Source of the DNA: Saccoglossus kowalevskii
Lineage: Eukaryota > Hemichordata > Enteropneusta > Harrimaniidae
DNA length: 64,000 nt
Reading direction: 5' to 3'
Assembly: GCF_000003605.2 (NCBI RefSeq)
Contig: NW_003156241.1
Location: forward strand, 274,773-338,772
The notes under the pieces: generated by a model
Databases searched by the model: none
What the model was told of the DNA's origin: nothing
Seen by the model: only the letters and a program-made list of their open reading frames with translations
In this document: in pieces, positions 3,173 through 35,322 of the stretch
Numbering within the stretch: the stretch's first letter is position 1
Layout: each line of letters begins with the position of its first letter
Translations under genes and position numbers: made by a program

Positions 3173-6100
3173 CTTGAAAAAAAAAAAACGAAGATAAATT
3201 GCACCACTAATGTTGAAAATAGAAATTCTTTTGTTTTTATGAAGCTTTGTAATGAATGACATGATTTTCGGCAGCTGCCAATAAAAGTTTCTCATAGTGC
3301 TATCATGTGCGTTTTTTTTTTTGTAAAAATTTTCAGAACTTTGCCATTAGAAAATTAGAACCGTAAATATACAAAATAGAGGAAAAATCTTGTGGTATCA
3401 CAGTGCTTTGTTACTACATGTACGACTTGCAAGTGCTAATGATACATATTGCCATAGAAACCATATTCCATATTTGTTATTATGTGAAAGATGTGTGTGC
3501 AACTATCGTCCAATCATAATGACAGTTCAATGTGTCACTACAGCATCATCCAAGCCTGGTTGAATGCAAGCACCTGCAGACCTTAAAGGTTACTCCATTA
3601 ATAAGTTCTCGATCAGTGGCGTAGCATCACCATTGAGTTGGTGGCAAACTTGCACAAAGTTGACCATGTTTTCTGTGTTCAACCCTAGAAAATATCGACT
3701 GAAATTCGAGACATTCGAATACTTACTTTTTCCATCTCGTCACTAAAATAATATCTCCTTTGTATAAAGTAATTCTGGGTTCATCTGTACAGGGCGCAGT
3801 TATACACGTTTTACAACCTTTAGTGATGGGGAACACTGAACCACTGTAATTTTCAGAGATGGTCAACTCCATCTGAAATGCGAGTGAAAAAAAAAAAACA
3901 GGTTGTAAGAAAATAAACAATCTGTTCATATACATGTGCATCATTTTATTTTACAATCCTTTATAATTATAATGGCTGATTGGCAGCCATTTTAATATTA
4001 AAGGTATTGCATCCAGGACCAAATATTTTATTGATATAGTTTTGCTGGAATTAATAACTGACTAATTCTTAGTATTTCATTTAAAAAAAACATGACAAAG
4101 AATTGTGCGATACCAACTAAAAATCTACTAAACTTCACTAAAAACCTCAAGATGAATTTGTAAAAAGTACATTATGTGTACAGGAAATGTTCACCATTTG
4201 TTGTTTTCCCGTTCTCAATTACTGTATTTGCTCTACTGTAAAATCTGTATTAGAAGCCGCAGTTTCTATTAAAATGGTACAATGCAACAGAGGGGATTCT
4301 ATCAGAACATCTACACATATGAGAAATGGTGATTTTTGGTTCTCAATTGTTCAAAAAGAATGGGTGCGACTTCTATTAAGGATGCGGTTTCTAATACAGA
4401 TTTTACGATATTAACAGTGCATACGCTTACACAAATAACAGCAGTGTGTCTATGACCAAAAAAATGATTCAGCATCCAACAAATACAATTGATTGTTAAA
4501 ATGCTTCAAGATTGGAGCCACAAAATAAATATTTTATTTTGTAAACAGACAGCAAGTAAGTGTATCTGAACATGGGTGAAGACAGGCACATTCCGCCCTC
4601 CTTTTTTCCTTTCATTCAGATAAAAAAAACTTTTGGAACTGACATCCTTCTCAAACAGCATCGTCCAAATCGCACAGTCCTGTGTCTTCGATCTATAGGC
4701 CTCCACACGATACCGTGCGGGATCGCATAGGCTAATTGCGTATCTTAAAACAAGGCGCCCAATCAGCTTGGCTTACCAAATTATGAAACAAAATTCCACT
4801 TCCTGTTTTTGTCGCTATGAAGACATCCTTCCCACATAAAACTGCATCGATTGCCTGTACCTGATGAGGCTTGAGAGCACCAACACCGAAAACTTTCGCA
4901 ATTTTATCATCACAAATATCACGATTCATGGGCGCCGCCATTTTGTTTAAAATGAAACGCCAAAGAGGGATTTGTAACACGCAAACTGATTGGACAATGA
5001 TTAGCCACAACTAACTACTGGGGGCGCTGTTAGAATACGCATATTTGATGGTCATTCTGCCAAGGTCTGTTTAGAGGCTTGGAATAAACTTAGACCTTGG
5101 CTAGTGAAGATGCTCAACCAGAAACGGATTTACTTTTTTTTTTTTATTGGTCTAATGAAGATGATCACTCACAGTGCGGTTCCTTTTCTCTTCTTTCTGT
5201 TGTAGTTGTTCAATCTGTGAACAAATATAATATTTGGTACATGTTAAAAGTTGTATTAAAGTTTATAATCACTTGCAAAATCTGTTTTGCTGGATGGCAA
5301 AAATTGGTGTTTACAGTTTGACAGCAGTTAACATAATGTGATGATGCAGACGTCCTGTCTAAAAAACATTTTCCATAATTCATGAAATTCACTTTGAATT
5401 CTACAAGGAAAAAATACAAGGGAATTCACTTCAATTACATGAGGGAAAATTTCACAACAGTAAACATTTCATTGCTGTTTTTGTGGAGTCAATTTTATTT
5501 TCACAAAATTGCACGCATACTGACATCTTGACCATTTAAAGCCAGTATGAATTTCACCTTTCACGAAATAAACTTAACAAAAGATGTAGCCAATGCTAAA
5601 TGATGTCCACTTATTCTAAAATTAAAGAAATTACAGAATATTAAATAATATACAAAATATTGCTCCAAAAATGATTAAATAATGCAAAAATGAAAATTTA
5701 CTGTAATACTCACTGTCAAAGTGTACTGATTGCATCCATTCACTACTGGCCATGTTATTCCATCCCCACGTGGCGTGCCTTCCCATCGGAATATCTCCAA
5801 TAAATTACGTTTGCGACCAAGATCATAGGGATAAATAAACTCATCATCTCTAGGCCTATCCGCCTGCATACAAAGAAACACAGTTTATAGCAGATAGATT
5901 CATCAGATAAAACAAATGTTTGTGTCATGCAATATTTTAATGAGTTTGTACATTGTGAATAAAAAGTAAAAGAGGGAAATGAGGAGTAGAGTGCGTATTC
6001 ACAGGTATAAATGATTGCATGTGTTGTCTAAAATAAACATGTGTAAGTAGCAAAATTAATATGTGAACTTTTTTTCAAATTTTCCATTGCAACAAACGCC

Positions 6101-9100: not shown

Positions 9101-12100
9101 ATATTGCATTGAAGTCAATAATAAACTATGAATACTAAAGCTAAAAAAACACGGTCCTTACAGAATTGTTATCAATATTTCATAGTAACTTGCATTTATC
9201 TTTAGAATCTCTTGGGACGACAGGTCTCTGCATTCAAGATTGCAACATACTAGTATTCATTTTTGAAACAGTTTTTCGAGTAAACGCTAAATATTAATAG
9301 TCTAATTATGTTAACATATTTGTGTAGTATTAGTACTAAATCTGAGTTACCCCGGTATATAGCAATGTTTGGTTTATGTTTTTCGATTGGTGACTTTCTT
9401 GTATATAGCACATTTAAAAATAAAGATTTTTGTTCAAATTTCTACTTTTTTTTTGTGATTTCTGTGATGGAAAACGACCAAATATCAATAGAGTATGTTC
9501 CTATATTGCGACGTATGCAATATAAGTACCGGCATAACCTGTACACACAAGAAAATTGCAGATTGATTTTACTAGTCAAACATTTTGCCCAAATTTGACA
9601 TTCTCACCAAAATATATTTGAAATTCGGTAATTTTTTTTTTCATACAACCATTTAGATTTTTTCATTTGTATTAGACATTCTATTATTTGAATGAAGCTT
9701 AATACTGAAATTCAGAGATGTGTGTTGATACTGTCAGCACCAGCTGATTGTACTGACCAAGTACTTTAACCTTTTCTCCACTAGAAATTTTTCTGCACTT
9801 TTTTCTTATATTTTTCAATATTTCTGGAAATGAACTCTAATTTTGCAAACAGACAAAAATTTAAGTCAATTTTCAGTTTCTACTCAAAAAACTTGTTTTG
9901 TTTTTCCAAACTATAAATGGGACTGTTTTGTGATGATAAGAGAAAACTGGGGTGAAAAGGTTAAGATATCTGTGGAAGAACAACAACTTTCTTAATCACT
10001 ATGCAAATTGAATAATTAATATGGTTTTCAACCAAAACCTGATCAGGTCAGCATATTATTCCTGAGCACTATGTACCAACTATTACTGTAAATAAACAAT
10101 ATGTCATAATATGCACAGGACTTGTGTAACATTGCAACTCTTATTCACTATATTTGGATATAGCAAATGACAGACAATAATGACAAAGTTCACAAAAAAC
10201 CTAATTAACCTAATGCTAATTTTCTCAAATGAATACACTGTTATGCAAATTAGGTAATTAATATGCACAGGAATTGTGCAACATTGCAACTCCTATTCAC
10301 TCTATATTTGTATATAGCTAATGACAGACAATAATGACAGAGTTCAGAAAAAACCTAATGCTAATTTTCTCAAATGAATACATTGTTATGCAAATTAGGT
10401 AATTAATATGCACAGGACTTGTGTAACATTGCGACTCCTATTCACTCTATATTTGTATATAGCTAATGACAGACAATAATGACAGAGTTCACAAAAAAAC
10501 CTAATGCTAATTTTCTCAAATGAATACATTGTTATGCAAATTAGGTAATTAATATGCACAGGACTTGTGTAACATTGCGACTTCTATTCACTCTATATTT
10601 GGATATAGCAAATGACAGACAATAATGACAAAGTTCACAAAAAACCTAATAAACCTAATGCTAATTTTCTCAAATGAATACATTGTTATGCAAATTAGGT
10701 AATTAATATGCACAGGAATTGTGCAACATTGCAACTCCTATTCACTCTATATTTGTATATAGCTAATGACAGACAATAATGACAGAGTTCACAAAAAACC
10801 TAATGCTAATTTTCTCAAATGAATACATTGTTATGCAAATTAGGTAATTAATATGCACAGAACCTGTACAATATTGCAACTCCTATTCACTGTATATTTG
10901 TATATAGCTAATGACAGACAATAATCACAAAGTTCACAATAAACCTAATCAGGTCTACTAAATTTCTCAGAGCAACAACTATTCCTCACAATGAATAAAT
11001 CTATATGCAAATTAGATGATTAATATGCACAATTCTACTTACCCTATATAGCTGATGATAGATAGTAATGATGAAAATTACAGCACCATGTATACACCCA
11101 GCTGGTGCAAAAAATAGAAAATATATAAATCTTGTATGGTTGGTGTGCCCACAACACGTGTTAATCCACGGACAGTGGTGATCCATCTTCATCACGCACC
11201 TGTAATCAGTGGAAAAACAGAAAAGTTGAAGTAGTAAAATTTGAATGAAATATTTCTATAGAAACATAAGATTATAATTGATAATTTAATTAATTTATTT
11301 ATTAATTTCATTCATTAATATTGTTTTACAATTTCTGATATTGACCTGTAGACAATGGACAGTTTCAAAGGTACCCAAAAAAATCAAATAAAAATACAAA
11401 TATACACTATAAGGTGGGAAACATGTCTGTGAGTAAAAAAACATGATATAATCTATGGACAACCTTGCCTGTGATAAATTGGCCACAAGTAATTGACAAT
11501 GTTGACTACAACAACAGACATGATAGCCACTACACTTTCCCTTTCATTTAGTCAGCGACCTGTCTATCATTTTAGATACTCCTTATTAATTTAGAAAATT
11601 AATATATCTAACATGTCAACTTTTGATTGAACATTTCATTAACTTAAAATAGCAATGAATTATCAACAAAAATAGATTACTTATTAATGGCTAAAGACTA
11701 CTGACTTTCATTTCAGTAATAATTTTAGACGGGTACTTATCATTTCTGGGTATAACCCTGATTACAGGCAAGTTAAAAACACTATCAGGCACCGTATATC
11801 ATTACATGCAATTTGAGTAATTCAATTTGGAGTGTGGGATAATATTCAACGACAGTTTGTTGTCTAACTATTATGTACTCGTACATAGGGCGACGTAGTG
11901 GAAACTCAACAGACAACATTGTCGTCAGGATTCTCTAAGTATTACCCAAGTTTGCTGAGATTGAAGCAACTCTAATTAACAGTACCTTCCGCTCCTCTTA
12001 CATGAAAGCAGCACAACTTTGAATTTTTGGCTCCAAAACAACAGGAGGTAGTGTTGTATCAGTGTCCATCCGTTCATTTGTGTTTGTGCGTCTGTGTGAT

Positions 12101-15100
12101 GGTTGGATTGCAATGGAACTTTGTATGTACTACCGGTATATCATGATCCTGTAGCACTTACAGACTACATGTCAGTTGCTACAGTCTTTCATTTCAATAA
12201 TGATTATAGACACACACTTTTCAGTTTCTGATTACAGGCAAGTTAAAACAGCGTAACAGACATAGTGTAACATTACATCTAATCTGAGATAATATTAACG
12301 ACAGTTTGTTGTCTAACTATAATGCACTCATGCATGAGTAATGCAGTGGAAACCCAACAGATTACATTGTCAGCTGTATTGCCAATGTTCACAGAAAAAC
12401 TTATTTGAAGTAGACCCAGGTACCTCCCCTCCCCATCCCATCCCATCCCTTCCATTTTTTATATGAAAGAAGCAGAATCTTTGAATTTTTGGCTCCTAAA
12501 CAGGAGGGTAATGTTGTATTGTTGTCCATCTGTCCGCCTACTCGCCTGCCTGTGCGTCCATTTATGTTTGTGCATCTGTCAAATATGTTTCACAGATATC
12601 TCAAGAACCAATAGTTGGATTGCAATGGAACTTGGTACACACCTACTACACATGTACATGTAAATGACGAACACAAGACCTTATATTACATGTAGATCTT
12701 GTTTATGAATGTCATTGGTATTATTTTCAGATTTTTAGAAAGTTGATAAGGTTCAAAATACAAACCGCATATTCTTCGCCTGACCATATTGTAGAAATTA
12801 TTAATACACTTGCTTTTAATAAACAACAAAAGCTTCATCCAAAAAAACAACAAGTCCTTGTTTTTGAAAATGAAACAATCAAATTTATTCCAAATGTAAT
12901 ACTTTTCATTTTCGCTGAGCTTTGACAAATTGAGAATGCCTCTTAAAGATGTCAAAAATGTTTACAGTACCTTCCACATTTTCTGCAGTGATGAGATCTT
13001 GGCGCTTTGTAACCCTCACAGATTTTACAAAATTGCAGAAACTTCTCATCTTCAGGATTCTCCTAAAACAAAACAAAACAAATGGTAAGTAAGGTCTAAT
13101 GTCAAACTGAAAGACATCTCACTAAAAGATCACTACTTCCATTAAGTTGTAAAAACCACATGTCTGTAAATGTCAAACAACCTGAATGTCATAGAGCATC
13201 CCTAACCTCATGACAATTACTTCTATGTTGCAGAGCATCTTGTTAAAGAGCCCACCTAACCTCATAATCATTATCTGCATGTAACAGATTATCTCTACCT
13301 GCTCAACCACTTCTTGGGTTGCTAAGAATCCCCAACTTCACAATTAATTCATGTACACATTTTGCAAAGCCCCCTAACCAACCATATTATCAGACACAAT
13401 CTAATCGTATAAACATTGTATGTTGTGAGGAAAGGATACAGAATTTTAATTTACCCAGTTTGTTTGTTTGTCTTTTTAAAACTAAAATTGATTAGAAAAA
13501 AGTTTTAAAATATTCACACAAACCCAATGAATCTCCTCTATATACACCCTAAACTCAACATTGAATGTTGCAGAACATCCCTAAAGTTGACATTAAATGT
13601 TGCAGAACATCCCTAAACTCAACATTGAATGTTGCAGAACATCACTAAAGTTGACATTGAATGTTGTAGAACATCCCTAAACTCAACATTTAATGTTGCA
13701 GTGTAGCCCTAAAGTCAACAATGAATGTTGCAGAGCATCTGGGATTCCCTAAACTCAACATTGATTGTTGCAGGGCATCCCTAAAGTTGACATTGCATGT
13801 TGTAGAACATCCCTAAAGTCAACATTGAATGTTGCAGAGAAACGCTAAACTTGACATTTAATGTTGCCGAGCATCCCTAAAGTTGACATTGAATGTTGCA
13901 GTGTAGCCCTAAAGTCAACAACATTGAATGTTGCAGTGTAGCCCTAAAGTCAACAATGAATGTTGCAGAGTATCTGGGATTCCCTAAACTCAACATTGAT
14001 TGTTGCAGGGCATCCCTAAAGTTGACATTGAATGTTGTAGAACATCCCTAAAGTTGACATTGAATGTTGCAGAACATCTCTAAACTCAACAATTATTTTT
14101 TTCAGAGTACCCTATTCTATTCAACAATTATTTTTTTCAGAGTACCCTATTCTATTTAATTAGTTACATGTATATACTATGTGTTGCAAAGCATCTCTGA
14201 CATGGAAAATTTATTTGGCTACACATGCATTCTCAATGTGATGCGAGTTATAGGTAGAAAGGCAATAATAATAATCATATTAAACATTTAATAATATTTA
14301 GTATGGATGGATAATGAGATATTAATTTTGAACAATGTATGTTCTACGTTTAGGATCGGTAGGCTGTTTTGAGCTTAGCTTCAATAAGTCAATCCAGTGT
14401 GAAAATAACAATCAACAATGCTTTATTACCAAATAGATTTATTTTGTTATTAGGGCAATTGGTTAATGTATTATTCAATGAGCTCCACTCAAAATGCAAG
14501 GAAGAATGTATATAAATTCTTCATCTAGCAAATTTTGTTATCTATCTTAGGATTAATTTTTTTTTTCATCTACTTCATTTATCCTCAAAAAACATTATTT
14601 TGATATTTACCAAAAATAGAAATTTCTGAACTGCAGAAGAATTAAAAATATTTTTTTTTTTAAATGGCAGTATTGTCATGAAATAAAAATAGTGATTGAC
14701 AGAGGTTTGGATCAGATAATTAACTTTAAATTTTTATCAATATTTTATTTGGGAAAAAAGAAGACTATGAACTGAATTCTTTTGTAGACTGTGGCTGAAG
14801 TTGATTGGTGTTAAAGAATTAAGCCAAATTCCAAAGTGGCCAGTTGTAGAGTGCAGGCTGAATAAATATGACAAGACACTGTCCGCTGTTTTTACGATCT
14901 AGTTTGATTTTATGGCACGTTTTACATAGCATATATAAATAATTAATAACATTGTAAATTTATTATTTATAAACTATTTAAATAATTCATAATAAAAACA
15001 AATTGATACCCATTAAACCTACTCTGCTGCGATTTAAAAATCAAAGTTTAGAATTATTCTATTAAATTTTGCGATTTTAGGATTGAAGCAGATGTGATTG

Positions 15101-29175: not shown

Positions 29176-32100
29176 CCATGCCAACTAGTCCCAACACAGT
29201 TGGTACTGCACATTAGTACCCATCAATGCCAACTAGTCCCCTACAGCTGGTACTGTACATTAATACTTACCCATGACGACTAGTCCCCCACAGTTGGTAC
29301 TGCACATAAATACTTACCAGTGCCAACTAGTCCCAACACAGTTGGTACTGCATATTAGTACTCACCAATGCCAACTAGTCCCCCACAATTGGCACTGCAC
29401 ATTAATACTTACCAGTGCCAACTAATCCCACATAGTTGGTACTGCACATTAGTACTTACCCATGCCAACTAGTCCCAACACAGTTGGTACTGCACATTAG
29501 TACTCACCAATGCCAACTAGTCCCCCACAGTTGGTACTGCACATTAATACTTACCCATGCCAACTGATCCCAACACAGTTGGTACTGCACATTCGTACTT
29601 ACCCATGCCAACTGGTCCCAACACAGTTGGTACTGCACATTAGTAGTCACCAATGCCAACGAGTGGCCACACAGTTGGTACTGCACATTTGTACTTACCA
29701 ATGCCAACTAGTCCCCCACAGTTGGTACTGCACATTAGTACTTACCCATACCAACTAGTCGCAACACAGTTGGTACTGCACATTAGTACTTACCCATGCC
29801 AACTAGTGGCCACATAGTTGGTACTGCACATTAGTACTTACCCATGCCAACTAGTCCCAACACAGTTGGTACTGCACATTAATACTCACCAATGCCAACT
29901 AGTCCCCCACAGTTGGTACTGCACATTAGTACTTACCCATGCCAACTAGTCGCCACAGCTGGTACTGCACATTAATACTGACCCATGCCAACTAGTCCCC
30001 CACAGTTGGTACTGCACATTAGTACTTACCCATGCCAACTAGTCCCAACACAGTTGGTACTGCACATTAATACTCACCAATGCCAACTAGTCCCCCACAG
30101 TTGGTACTGCACATTAGTACTTACCCATGCCAACTAGTCCCAACACAGTTGGTACTGCACATTAATACTCACCAATGCCAACTAGTCCCCCACAGTTGGT
30201 ACTGCACATTAGTACTCACCCATGCCAACTAGTCGCCACAGCTGGTACTGCACATTAGTACTCACCAATGCCAACTAGTGGCCACATAGTTGGTACTGCA
30301 CATTAGTACTTACCCATGCGAACTAGTAGCCACATAGTTGGTACTACATATTAGTACTTACCAGTGCCAACTAGTCCCCTCACATTTGGTACTGCACATT
30401 AGTACTTAACCACGCCAACTAGTCCCAACACAGTTGGTACTGCACATTAGTACTCACCAATGCCAACTAGTCCCCCACAGTTGGTACTGCACATTAGTAC
30501 TTACCCATGCCAACTGGTCCCAACACAATTGGTACTGCACATTAGTACTCACCAATGCCAACTAGTCCCCCACTGCTGGTACTGCACATTAGTACTCACC
30601 AATGCCAAATAGTCCCAACACAGCTGGTACTGCACGTTAGTACTCACCAATGCCAACTAGTGGCCACACAGTTGGTACTGCACATTAGTACTTACCAATG
30701 CCAACTAGTCCCAACACAGTTGGTACTGCACATTAGTACTCACCAATGCCAACTAGTCCCCCACAGTTGGTACTGCACATTAGTACTTACCCATGCCAAC
30801 TGGTCCCAACACAATTGGTACTGCACATTAGTACTCACCAATGCCAACTAGTCCCCCACTGCTGGTACTGCACATTAGTACTCACCAATGCCAAATACTC
30901 CCAACACAGTTGGTACGACATATTAGTACTTACCAATGCCAACTAGTCCCCCACAGCTGGTACTGCACATTAGTACTCACCAATGCCAACTAGTGGCCAC
31001 ACAGTTGGTACTACACATTAGTACTTACCCATGCGAACTAGTAGCCACATAGTTGGTACTACATATTAGTACTTACCAGTGCCAACTAGTCCCCTCACAG
31101 TTGGTACTGCACATTGGTACATGCCAATGCCAACTAATCCCCCACAGCTGGTACTGTACATTAGTACTCGCCAATGCCAACTAGTGGCCACACAGTTGGT
31201 ACTACATATTAGTACTTACCCGTGCCAACTAGTCCCCTCACAGTTGGTACTGCACATTGGTACATGCCAATGCCAACTAATCCCCCCCAGCTGGTACTGC
31301 ACATTAGTACTTACCCATGCCAACTAGTCGCTACACAGTTGATACTGCACATTAGTACTCACCAATGCCAACTAGTCCCCCACTGCTGGTACTGCACATT
31401 AGTACTCACCAATGCCAAATAGTCCCAACACAGTTGGTACGACATATTAGTACTTACCAATGCCAACTAGTCCCCCACAGCTGGTACTGCACATTAGTAC
31501 TCACCAATGCCAACTAGTCCCCCCACTGCTGGTACTGCACATTAGTACTCACCAATGCCAAATAGTCCCAACACAGTTGGGACTGCACATTAGTACTTAC
31601 CAATGCCAACTAGTCCCAACACAGCTGGTACTGCACATGAGTACTCACCAATGCCAACTAGTCCCCACAGATGGTACTGCACATTAGTACTTACCAATGC
31701 CATCTAGTCCCCACAGCTGGTACTGCACATTAGTACTTACCAATGCCAACTAGTCCCCTACAGCTGGTACTGCACATTAGTACTTACCCATGTCAACTAG
31801 TCCCAACATAGTTGGTACTGCACATTAGTACTTACCCATGCCAACTAGTCCCCTCACAGTTGATACTGCACATTAATACTTACCCATGCCAACTAGTCCC
31901 AACACAATTGGTACTGCACATTAGTTCTTACCCATGCCAACTAATCCCAACACAATTGGTACTGCACATTAGTACCCACCAATGCTAACTAGTGGCCATA
32001 CAGTTGGTACTGCACATTAATACTTACCCATGCCAACTAGTCCCAACATAGTTGGTACTGCACATTAGTACTCACCAATGCCAACTAGTCCCCCACAGCT

Positions 32101-35100
32101 TGTACTGCACATTAGTAATCACCTATGCCAACTTGTCCCAACATAGTTGGTACTGCTCATTAGTACTTACCCATGCCAACTAGTCCCAACACGGTTAGTA
32201 CTGCACATTAGTACTTACCCATGCCAACTAGTGGTCACACAGTTGGTACTGCACATTAGTACACACCAATGCCAACTAGTCTCTCACAGTTGGTACTGCA
32301 CATTAGTACTTACCCATGCCAACTAGTGGCCACAAAGTTGGTATTGCACATTAGTACTTACCCATGCCAACTAGTGGTCACAGTTGGTACTGCACATTAG
32401 TACTCACCAATGCCAACTAGTCCCCCACAGCTGGTACTGCACATTAGTAATCACCCATGCCAACTTGTTCCAACACAGTTGGTACTGCTCATTAGTACTT
32501 ACCCATGCCAACTAGTCACCCACAGCTGGTACTGCACATTAGTAATCACCCATGCCAACTTGTCCCAACACGGTTAGTACTGCTCATTAGTACTTACCCA
32601 TGCCAACTAGTCCCAACACGGTTAGTACTGCACATTAGTACTTACCCATGCCAACTAGTGGTCACAGTTGGTACTGCACATTAGTACTTGCCCATGCCAA
32701 CTAGTCCCAACACGGTTAGTACTGCACATTAGTACTTACCCATGCCAACTAGTGGTCACAGTTGGTACTGCTCAATAGTACTTACCAATGCCAACTAGTC
32801 CCAACACAGCTGGTACTGCTCATTAGTACTCACCAATGCGAACTAGTCCCCACACAGTTAGTACTGCACATTAGTACTTACCCATGCCAACTAGTCCCAA
32901 CACGGTTAGTACTGCACATTAGTACTTACCCATGCCAACTAGTCCCAACACAGTTAGTACTGCACATTAGTACTTACCCATGCCAACTAGTCCCAACACG
33001 GTTACTACTGCACATTAGTGATTACCAATGCCAACTAGTCCCAACACAGTTAGTACTGCACATTAGTACTTACCCATGCCAACTAGTGGTCACAGTTGGT
33101 ACTGCACATTAGTACTTACCCATGCCAACTAGTCCCAACACGGTTACTACTGCACATTAGTGATTACCAATGCCAACTAGTCCCAACACAGTTGGTACTG
33201 CACATTAGTACTTACCCATGTCAACTAGTCCCAACAGTTAGTACTGCACATTAGTACTTACCCATGCCAACTAGTCCAAACACGGTTAGTACTGCACATT
33301 AGTACTTACCCATGCCAACTAGTCCCAACACAGTTAGTACTGCACATCAGTACTTACCCATGCCAACAAGTGGCCATACAGTTGGTACTGCACATTAATA
33401 CTTACCCATGCCAACTAATCGCCACACAGTTACTACTGCACATTAGTGCTTACCAATGCCAACTAGTCCCCCGCAGTTGGTACTGCACATTAGTACTTAC
33501 CCATGCCAACTAGTCCCCTCACAGTTGGTACTGCACATTAGTACTCACCAATGCCAACTATTCCCCACTGCTGGTACTGCACATTAGTACTCACCAATGC
33601 CAAATAGTCCCAACACAGTTGGTACTACATATTAGTACTTTCCCGTGCCGACTAGTCCCAACACAGTTGGTACTACATATTAGTACTTACCCATGCCAAC
33701 TAGTCACAACACAGTTAGTATTGCACATTAGTACTTACCCATGCCAACTAGTGGCCACATAGTTGGTACTGCACATTAGTACTTACCCATGCCAACTAGT
33801 GGCCACATAGTTGGTACTGCACATTAGTACTCCCCAATGCCAACCAGTGGCCACACAGTTACTACTGCACATTAGTGATTACCAATGCCAACTAGTCCCC
33901 CACAGTTGGCACTGCACATTAGTACTCACCAATGCCAACTAGTGGCCACACAGTTGGTACTGCACATTAGTACTTACCCATGCCAACTAGTCCCAACAGA
34001 GTTGGTACTGCACATTAGTACTTACCCATGCCAACTAGTGCCCTCACAGTTGGTACTGCTCATTAATACTTACCCATGCCAACTAGTCCCAACACAGTTG
34101 GTAGTGGACATTAGTCCTTACCCATGCCCACTAGTCCCAACACAGTTGGTACTGCACATTAGTACTTACCCATGCCAACTAGTGCCCTCACAGTTGGTAC
34201 TGCACATTAATACTTACCCATGCCAACTAGTCCCAACACAGTTGGTACTGGACATTAGTCCTTACCCATGCCAACTAGTCCCAACACAGTTGGTACTGCA
34301 CATTAGTACTTACCCATGCCAATTATTCCCAACATAGTTGGTACTGGACATTAATACTTACCCATGCCAACTAGTCCCAACACAGTTGNNNNNNNNNNNN
34401 NNNNNNNNNNNNNNNNNNNNNNNNNNNNNNNNNNNNNNCTAGTCCCAACACAGTTGGTACTGGACATTAGTCCTTACCCATGCCAACTAGTCCCAACACA
34501 GTTGGTACTGCACATTAGTACTTACCCATGCCAATTATTCCCAACATAGTTGGTACTGGACATTAATACTTACCCATGCCAACTAGTCCCAACACAGTTG
34601 GTACTGCACATTAGTACTCACCAATGCCAACTAGTGGCCACACAGTTGGTACTGCACATTAGTACTTACCCATGCCAACTAGTCCCCCACAGTTGGCACT
34701 GCACATTAGTACTCACCAATGCCAACTAGTGGCCACACAGTTAGTACTGCACATTAGAACTTACCCATGCCAACTTGTCCCAACACAGTTGGTACTGCAC
34801 ATTAGTACTTACCCATGCCAACTAGTGCCCTAGCAGTTGGTACTGCACATTAATACTTCCCCATGCCAACTAGTCCCAATACAGTTGGTACTGGACATTA
34901 GTCCTTACCCATGCCAACTAGTCCCAACACAGTTGGTACTGCACATTAGTACTTACCCATGCCAACTAGTCCCAACACAGTTCGGGTACTGGACATTAGT
35001 CCTTACCCATGCCAAATAATCCCAACACAGTTAGTACTGCACATTAGTACTCACCAATGCCAACTAGTGGCCATACAGTTGGTTTTGCACATTAATACTT

Positions 35101-35322
35101 ACCCATGCCAACTAGTTCCAACACAGTTGGTAATGCACATTAGTACTCACCACGGCCAACTAGTGGCCATACAGTTGGTTCTGCACATTAATACTTACCC
35201 ATGCCAACTAGTCTCAACACAGTTAGTACTGCACATTAGTACTTACCCATGCCAACTAGTCCCCACAGCTGGTACTGCACATTAGTACTTACCCATGCCA
35301 ACTAGTCCCCGAACAGTTGGTC
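29176..35322. repeat. Large minisatellite, 48-bp unit, about 125 copies
   Basis: The unit begins CCAACTAGTCCCAACACAG and continues TTGGTACTGCACATTAGTAC then TTACCCATG. The region between AGT and AGTTGG varies in length and sequence (CCCAACAC, CCCCCAC, GGCCACAC, CGCCAC, GGTCAC); the rest changes little. The other main variable site is TACTTACC versus TACTCACC. Higher-order repetition of several units is evident, for example around 29950-30250 and 34020-34600. Because 48 is divisible by three, stretches stay open as a 16-residue repeat, which is not evidence of coding. Confidence 0.97.
34389..34438. other. Assembly gap (50 N) within the 48-bp array
   Basis: A round 50-base gap; the 162 bases before it and after it are identical, so true copy number is unknown here. 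Confidence 0.98.

Follow-up and report, generated by a model that had tools for sequence, protein, structure and literature searches.

The repeat unit of the 31 bp VNTR of human CBS spans an exon/intron junction. This VNTR is placed at exon 13-intron 13 in PMC1395315 and, as far as that account goes, it resembles the locus described here in being a tandem array at an exon/intron junction; its unit is short, whereas the copies described here are old and decayed. Also in human CBS, 844ins68 is presented in a passage of PMC2630376 as an intron/exon-junction duplication that yields a pair of splice sites and a preference for one of them. A segment across the junction is duplicated in both cases, but 844ins68 is a single 68 bp duplication with a usable splice site, for which that passage mentions no amplification, whereas here the segment appears amplified. 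Tandem duplication crossing an intron-exon boundary can, in the part of PMC4974935 concerned, give rise to a new intron from the copied signals. Compared with intron gain as set out there, the copies considered here stay within an intron that was already there, and the donor they carry has decayed.

A section of PMC7004042 describes satellite arrays fed by dispersed repeats that contain tandem units, and the family found here is similar in that a scattered repeat supplies short arrays. Unlike the repeats of that section, however, the array here is a local hybrid with an exon fragment. The satellite-filled introns of Drosophila, as far as they are covered in an excerpt of PMC6508621, have no bearing on the origin of the array. 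No paper on an array of this type was found, by title, among the matches listed for ZDHHC6 with intron and tandem repeat. The array in the intron of the ZDHHC6-like gene most likely arose by tandem duplication across a splice junction, and its analysis separates two look-alikes: a repeat scattered through the genome, and a splice junction duplicated at one place.

The host gene and its intronic array

The window is the whole 64,000-nucleotide stretch of Saccoglossus kowalevskii DNA that was analysed, and all coordinates are positions within it. The array lies on the minus strand, in a ZDHHC6-like DHHC palmitoyltransferase gene in which exon 2 (13062–12971, minus), exon 3 (11199–11043) and exon 4 (7478–7344) keep the reading frame across their joins. 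Joined exons 2 to 4 match Pfam DHHC at 1.7e-28, the DHHC zinc-finger catalytic domain being present, and exon 3 alone (52 codons and one base, with in-frame junctions) matches it at 1.3e-13. A C-terminal variant SH3 and a KKXX-type C-terminal end are traits that we take to be marks of ZDHHC6. The two 3'-most exons found match SH3_2 (variant SH3) weakly, with an E of 6e-4 and 19.9 bits, below the curated cut-off of 21.8, and the terminal residues of the last exon are KKEL. ZDHHC6 is a fair name for the host gene. Exon 3 ends at 11043 as AGG/GTAAGT, with the donor starting at 11042, and this GTAAGT (11037–11042, minus) is the true 5' splice site of intron 3, which extends from 11042 to about 7479. 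The array occupies the first 1.1 kb of the intron. Judged by their sequence, exon 3 of the gene and its donor appear still to be intact.

TRF reports a period of 145 with 5.6 copies at 10107–10943. Unit alignment places six hybrid units after the junction unit U0, within 10108–10938 on the minus strand: U1 (10794–10938), U2 (10640–10793), U3 (10494–10639), U4 (10349–10493), U5 (10195–10348) and U6 (10108–10194), the last truncated at the core. Spacings from U0 to U6 are 144, 145, 154, 146, 145 and 154 bp. The preliminary description, of about six minus-strand units of 146 bp with the real exon/intron junction as the outermost unit, agrees with these results, U0 at the edge being the genuine junction between exon 3 and intron 3. 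A hybrid unit consists of an exon-like segment, 28 extra bases, a core and a short tail. The exon-like element is 38 nt long, and a seventh, divergent copy of it, at 11045–11082, lies inside the true exon 3. By coordinates, the distance between exon-like segment and core is 15 bases in U0 and 43 in U1–U5. The approximately 28 extra bases, earlier given as a gain of about 30 at the copied donor, are made up of 8 and 20 and are common to all six copies, with U6 lacking two nearby bases.

The hybrid units are 90–98% identical to each other (U2 is 98.1% identical to U5, and U3 96.6% to U6 over 87 columns), while U0 is only 70–73% identical to U1–U6. A block of 300 nt is found twice, 97% identical and offset by 445 bp, which is three units. 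Folding of three whole units was no better than that of shuffles (z of +0.24 to +0.64); of the cores folded alone, that of U1 forms a small hairpin with a z of -2.5 and that of U0 has a z of -1.5.

A dispersed repeat family

The 26 bp core, TGCATATTAATTACCTAATTTGCATA, is near-palindromic. Allowing at most 2 mismatches, it is found 3,853 times in the 572 Mb genome, and six of these occurrences are in the window; a reversed-pattern control gave 0. Searching the genome with the array itself gave at least 54 further matches, all of which overlap a core, from 40 scored candidates out of 80. From 88 units in 39 fetched loci with core matches (L009–L047), a family profile was made that matches all 39 of these loci, 38 of them with two or more matches, and the matches are one-stranded in all but the mixed locus L037 (38/39). 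They span about 0.2–1.4 kb of the fetched stretches, the exception being L044 with one 40-base match. All three loci outside profile building (L055, L057 and L058) are positive, with 4–6 matches each; L056, which overlaps a used locus, was left out of the independent loci. Core-to-core spacings lie between 115 and 165 bp in 102 out of 128 cases, with a range of 20–806. The family therefore mostly forms short head-to-tail arrays where examined. Over 215 matches the core is 92–94% kept versus 69–82% for the rest, a difference biased by the picking of loci through core matches. None of the papers searched contains the six strings of the repeat that were looked for. Some family units have a AGGGTAAATAATTG-type string before the core that is like a 5' splice site, and in the family consensus the core is followed by TAATTTTCAG, which resembles a 3' splice site. 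Within the family core is ATTTGCAT, which we take to be POU-octamer-like.

In the array, the core is that of the family in five units and in U0. The start of intron 3 in U0 (11004–11036, minus) is a core of this family (profile E of 5.4e-5; 24/26 to the consensus), and the long tail beyond it (10939–11003, minus) is family-type repeat sequence, its score against the family consensus being reached by 0/2000 shuffles, with a profile E of only 2. At the far end, degraded family-type repeat is present at 9961–10090 on the minus strand, with profile matches at 10090–10000 (E of 1.3e-9) and 10023–9961 (E of 9e-6). This far end resembles the U0 long tail, none of 5000 shuffles being as good. Both flanks of the array, the U0 tail and 10090–9961, thus look to be family sequence. 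An array was confirmed within the originally proposed extent of 10109–11199, but degraded repeat continues beyond it to about 9961. Likewise, each unit had been said to continue with a copy of intron 3, and a core is indeed shared with U0, but that core is the genome-wide repeat. A further family fragment is located inside intron 2 on the opposite strand (12586–12647, plus; profile E of 1.7e-9).

The spacers between the cores are of a different nature. No family match was found when the U2 and U4 spacers were compared with the family consensus by shuffles, and the possibility that the spacer is a diverged family spacer was rejected, the score of U2 being reached by 1977 out of 2000 shuffles. 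The mean score of five spacers to the family is 19.4 here versus 64–171 in 28 loci with two or more spacers (the other 11 of the 39 were dropped), and neighbouring spacers in the array score 190 to each other. By these spacer scores none of the 28 comparable loci looks like a hybrid of the kind seen in the array. A whole-genome search with one core-to-core spacer containing the exon-like segment (10713–10831, minus) returned only the six local copies, in a heuristic search where no match does not prove rarity, and the best match of a spacer profile in the 39 fetched loci has an E of 0.37. Absence from the rest of the genome holds for the exon-bearing spacer only, the core being dispersed. The array, in which core and spacer do not both match the family, does not appear to be a full member of it. 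Since the spacer search returned only six local copies, the spacer is most simply explained by an origin at this locus.

The exon-like segment and the copied donors

The units had been described as carrying a degraded copy of about the last 40 bases of exon 3. Exon bases 11082–11045 (minus strand) match the consensus of U1–U6 at 29 of 38 positions, which bears this out, although the tests with loose gaps are weak. Of the nine differences, eight are transitions (P = 0.001 for an expected share of 1/3), and the nine are split evenly, three per codon position. Where exon 3 has a CAG codon, four units read TAG and the other two TTG. Identity of unit to exon against shuffled sequence, the comparison by which the idea was originally to be judged, favours the match: at a fixed alignment 29/38 is reached by 0/100,000 dinucleotide shuffles and by 607/100,000 synonymous recodings, though the register was picked after inspection and the 0/100,000 therefore overstates the case. 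Homology may run on from the donor into a decayed second core, as an aligner suggested for U0 against U6, but comparison of the intron start with the right half of the U2, U3 and U4 spacers gave scores not above shuffles.

The spacer might instead be diverged repeat or unrelated local DNA that resembles exon 3 by chance in AT-rich sequence. With loose gap costs, at which 1–9% of shuffles pass, the six spacers against the exon are equalled by 22–113 and 53–172 of 2,000 shuffles, and in a further test 94/3,000 shuffles, 4/3,000 recodings and 268/6,158 window pieces are as good. Across the window, and with no register imposed, the best match of the spacer profile to the exon tail has an E of only 0.12. 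All of this would fit chance. With strict gaps, however, free alignment of the whole exon against the U2 and U4 spacers (two of the six) is equalled by only 0–2 of 4,000 shuffles, and under a transition-favouring matrix none of 1,846 window pieces matches the exon score. Window pieces overlapping the array region or containing N were left out, and the strict test was also without the 48 bp array at 29.1–35.4 kb. A transversion-favouring matrix loses the exon signal (360–488 of 4,000 shuffles as good), in keeping with the excess of transitions, and among window 38-mers on both strands, with the array and exon 3 excluded, none is above 25/38. The match also falls at the very end of exon 3, in the same strand and order as the junction. 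Chance resemblance is therefore considered improbable, and the exon-like segment is likely, though not certainly, homologous to the exon 3 tail. The unit appears to hold the exon end and the adjacent intron start in order, as a tandem duplication spanning the junction would, with the donor-to-core stretch not significant alone and the exon end weaker under loose gaps. Amplification of a junction-spanning segment, as first proposed, is probable given this homology and a spacer found only locally.

The direction of transfer could also be reversed, the gene having received its exon 3 end, together with the donor, from the repeat. GGGTAA is present within 20 bases before the core in 26 of 167 family units, and in L023, L026, L034 and L027 the core is flanked by AGGGTAAATAATTG or a one-base variant, similar to AGGGTAAGTAGAATTG at the donor. 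GTAAGT, however, precedes the core in 0/167 family units, and a genome search allowing as many as 3 mismatches found the donor-core string once, at this locus. The exon tail has no match to the family consensus (307/2000 shuffles as good), and the fit of exon 3 to the DHHC profile reaches residue 50 of 52, which suggests that the coding tail is old. A repeat-derived exon end is thus hardly credible, although the repeat may have contributed bases of the intron that follow the donor. Scarcely better placed is the original proposal that exon 3 with its own intron seeded the array and that loss of decoy donors was required for correct splicing. The junction-spanning homology is in its favour, as is the much weaker pairing of the copied donors with U1 snRNA, the duplex being -9.5 kcal/mol for the true donor and -1.9 to -2.7 kcal/mol for the six homologous copy sites. 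Seeding by exon 3 does not fit the finding that the core, which is the intron part, and the array edges belong to the dispersed family; the exon end was rather captured into the repeat. Nor were the donors simply lost. GTAAGT has changed to GTGAAT, but the GT is kept in 6/6 copies, and some other GT sites that pair better with U1 snRNA (up to -5.6 kcal/mol) persist in the units. GTGAAT and the extra bases are common to the six copies, so the donor decayed once, before amplification, and from a single decay event selection cannot be shown. The base two before the donor differs in U1 and U6. Donor positions have changed at 3/9 in U2–U5 and 4/9 in U1 and U6 versus 9/38 for the exon-like segment, so no special pressure is seen and drift would give the same. 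Selection against decoy donors is therefore without support, and the fate of the copied donors looks neutral.

Proposed origin of the array

The reading preferred here, and held to be quite probable, is that a dispersed repeat adjoined the donor and that a junction-spanning duplication diverged and was re-amplified as the hybrid unit. One copy of the repeat family, whose units are usually arranged head-to-tail, directly abuts the 5' splice site at the start of intron 3. A tandem duplication would have started about 40 bases inside exon 3 and run across the donor into the repeat, so that the exon tail was copied into the intron; homology and local uniqueness both point to this. The copied tail would then have been free of coding and splicing constraint. 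The junction copy may have fallen to about 76% identity, with the GT retained but the donor consensus lost, and either it gained the 8 and 20 bases or U0 lost them. The hybrid unit would later have multiplied to six, an order shown by the identities, presumably through unequal exchange or replication slippage; in one or more of these steps about three units (445 bp) would have been copied together. Edge units of tandem arrays are usually divergent, and the outer units here would have stayed so. By the identities the array has two ages: the junction copy is old and decayed once, and its multiplication came later. This graded series of one old copy and six younger ones shows what becomes of donor sites after they are copied, and an exon end appears captured into a growing array while its own exon and donor remain intact in sequence. 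The array most likely has no splicing function and would be removed with intron 3. Most likely it came about by tandem duplication of an ordinary kind over a splice junction, and nothing indicates that splicing drove it.

A more active role for the repeat is conceivable but doubtful. The near-palindromic core might be a point of breakage or template switching that grows arrays wherever it lands and pulls neighbouring DNA, in this case the end of a coding exon and its splice site, into hybrid units. If so, exon-fragment arrays and intronic decoy splice sites would quite generally stem from repeats of this sort.

Other features were seen in the window. A 48 bp tandem repeat of about 129 copies with 84% matches is present at 29176–35321, interrupted by a 50-base N gap (34389–34438), and a 32 bp tandem array at 13547–14091 has a longer-period structure of 136, 168, 200 and 235 bp. 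An open frame at 4732–5010 (minus strand) has no Pfam match; it reads, presumably, like part of a DEAD/RecQ-type helicase.
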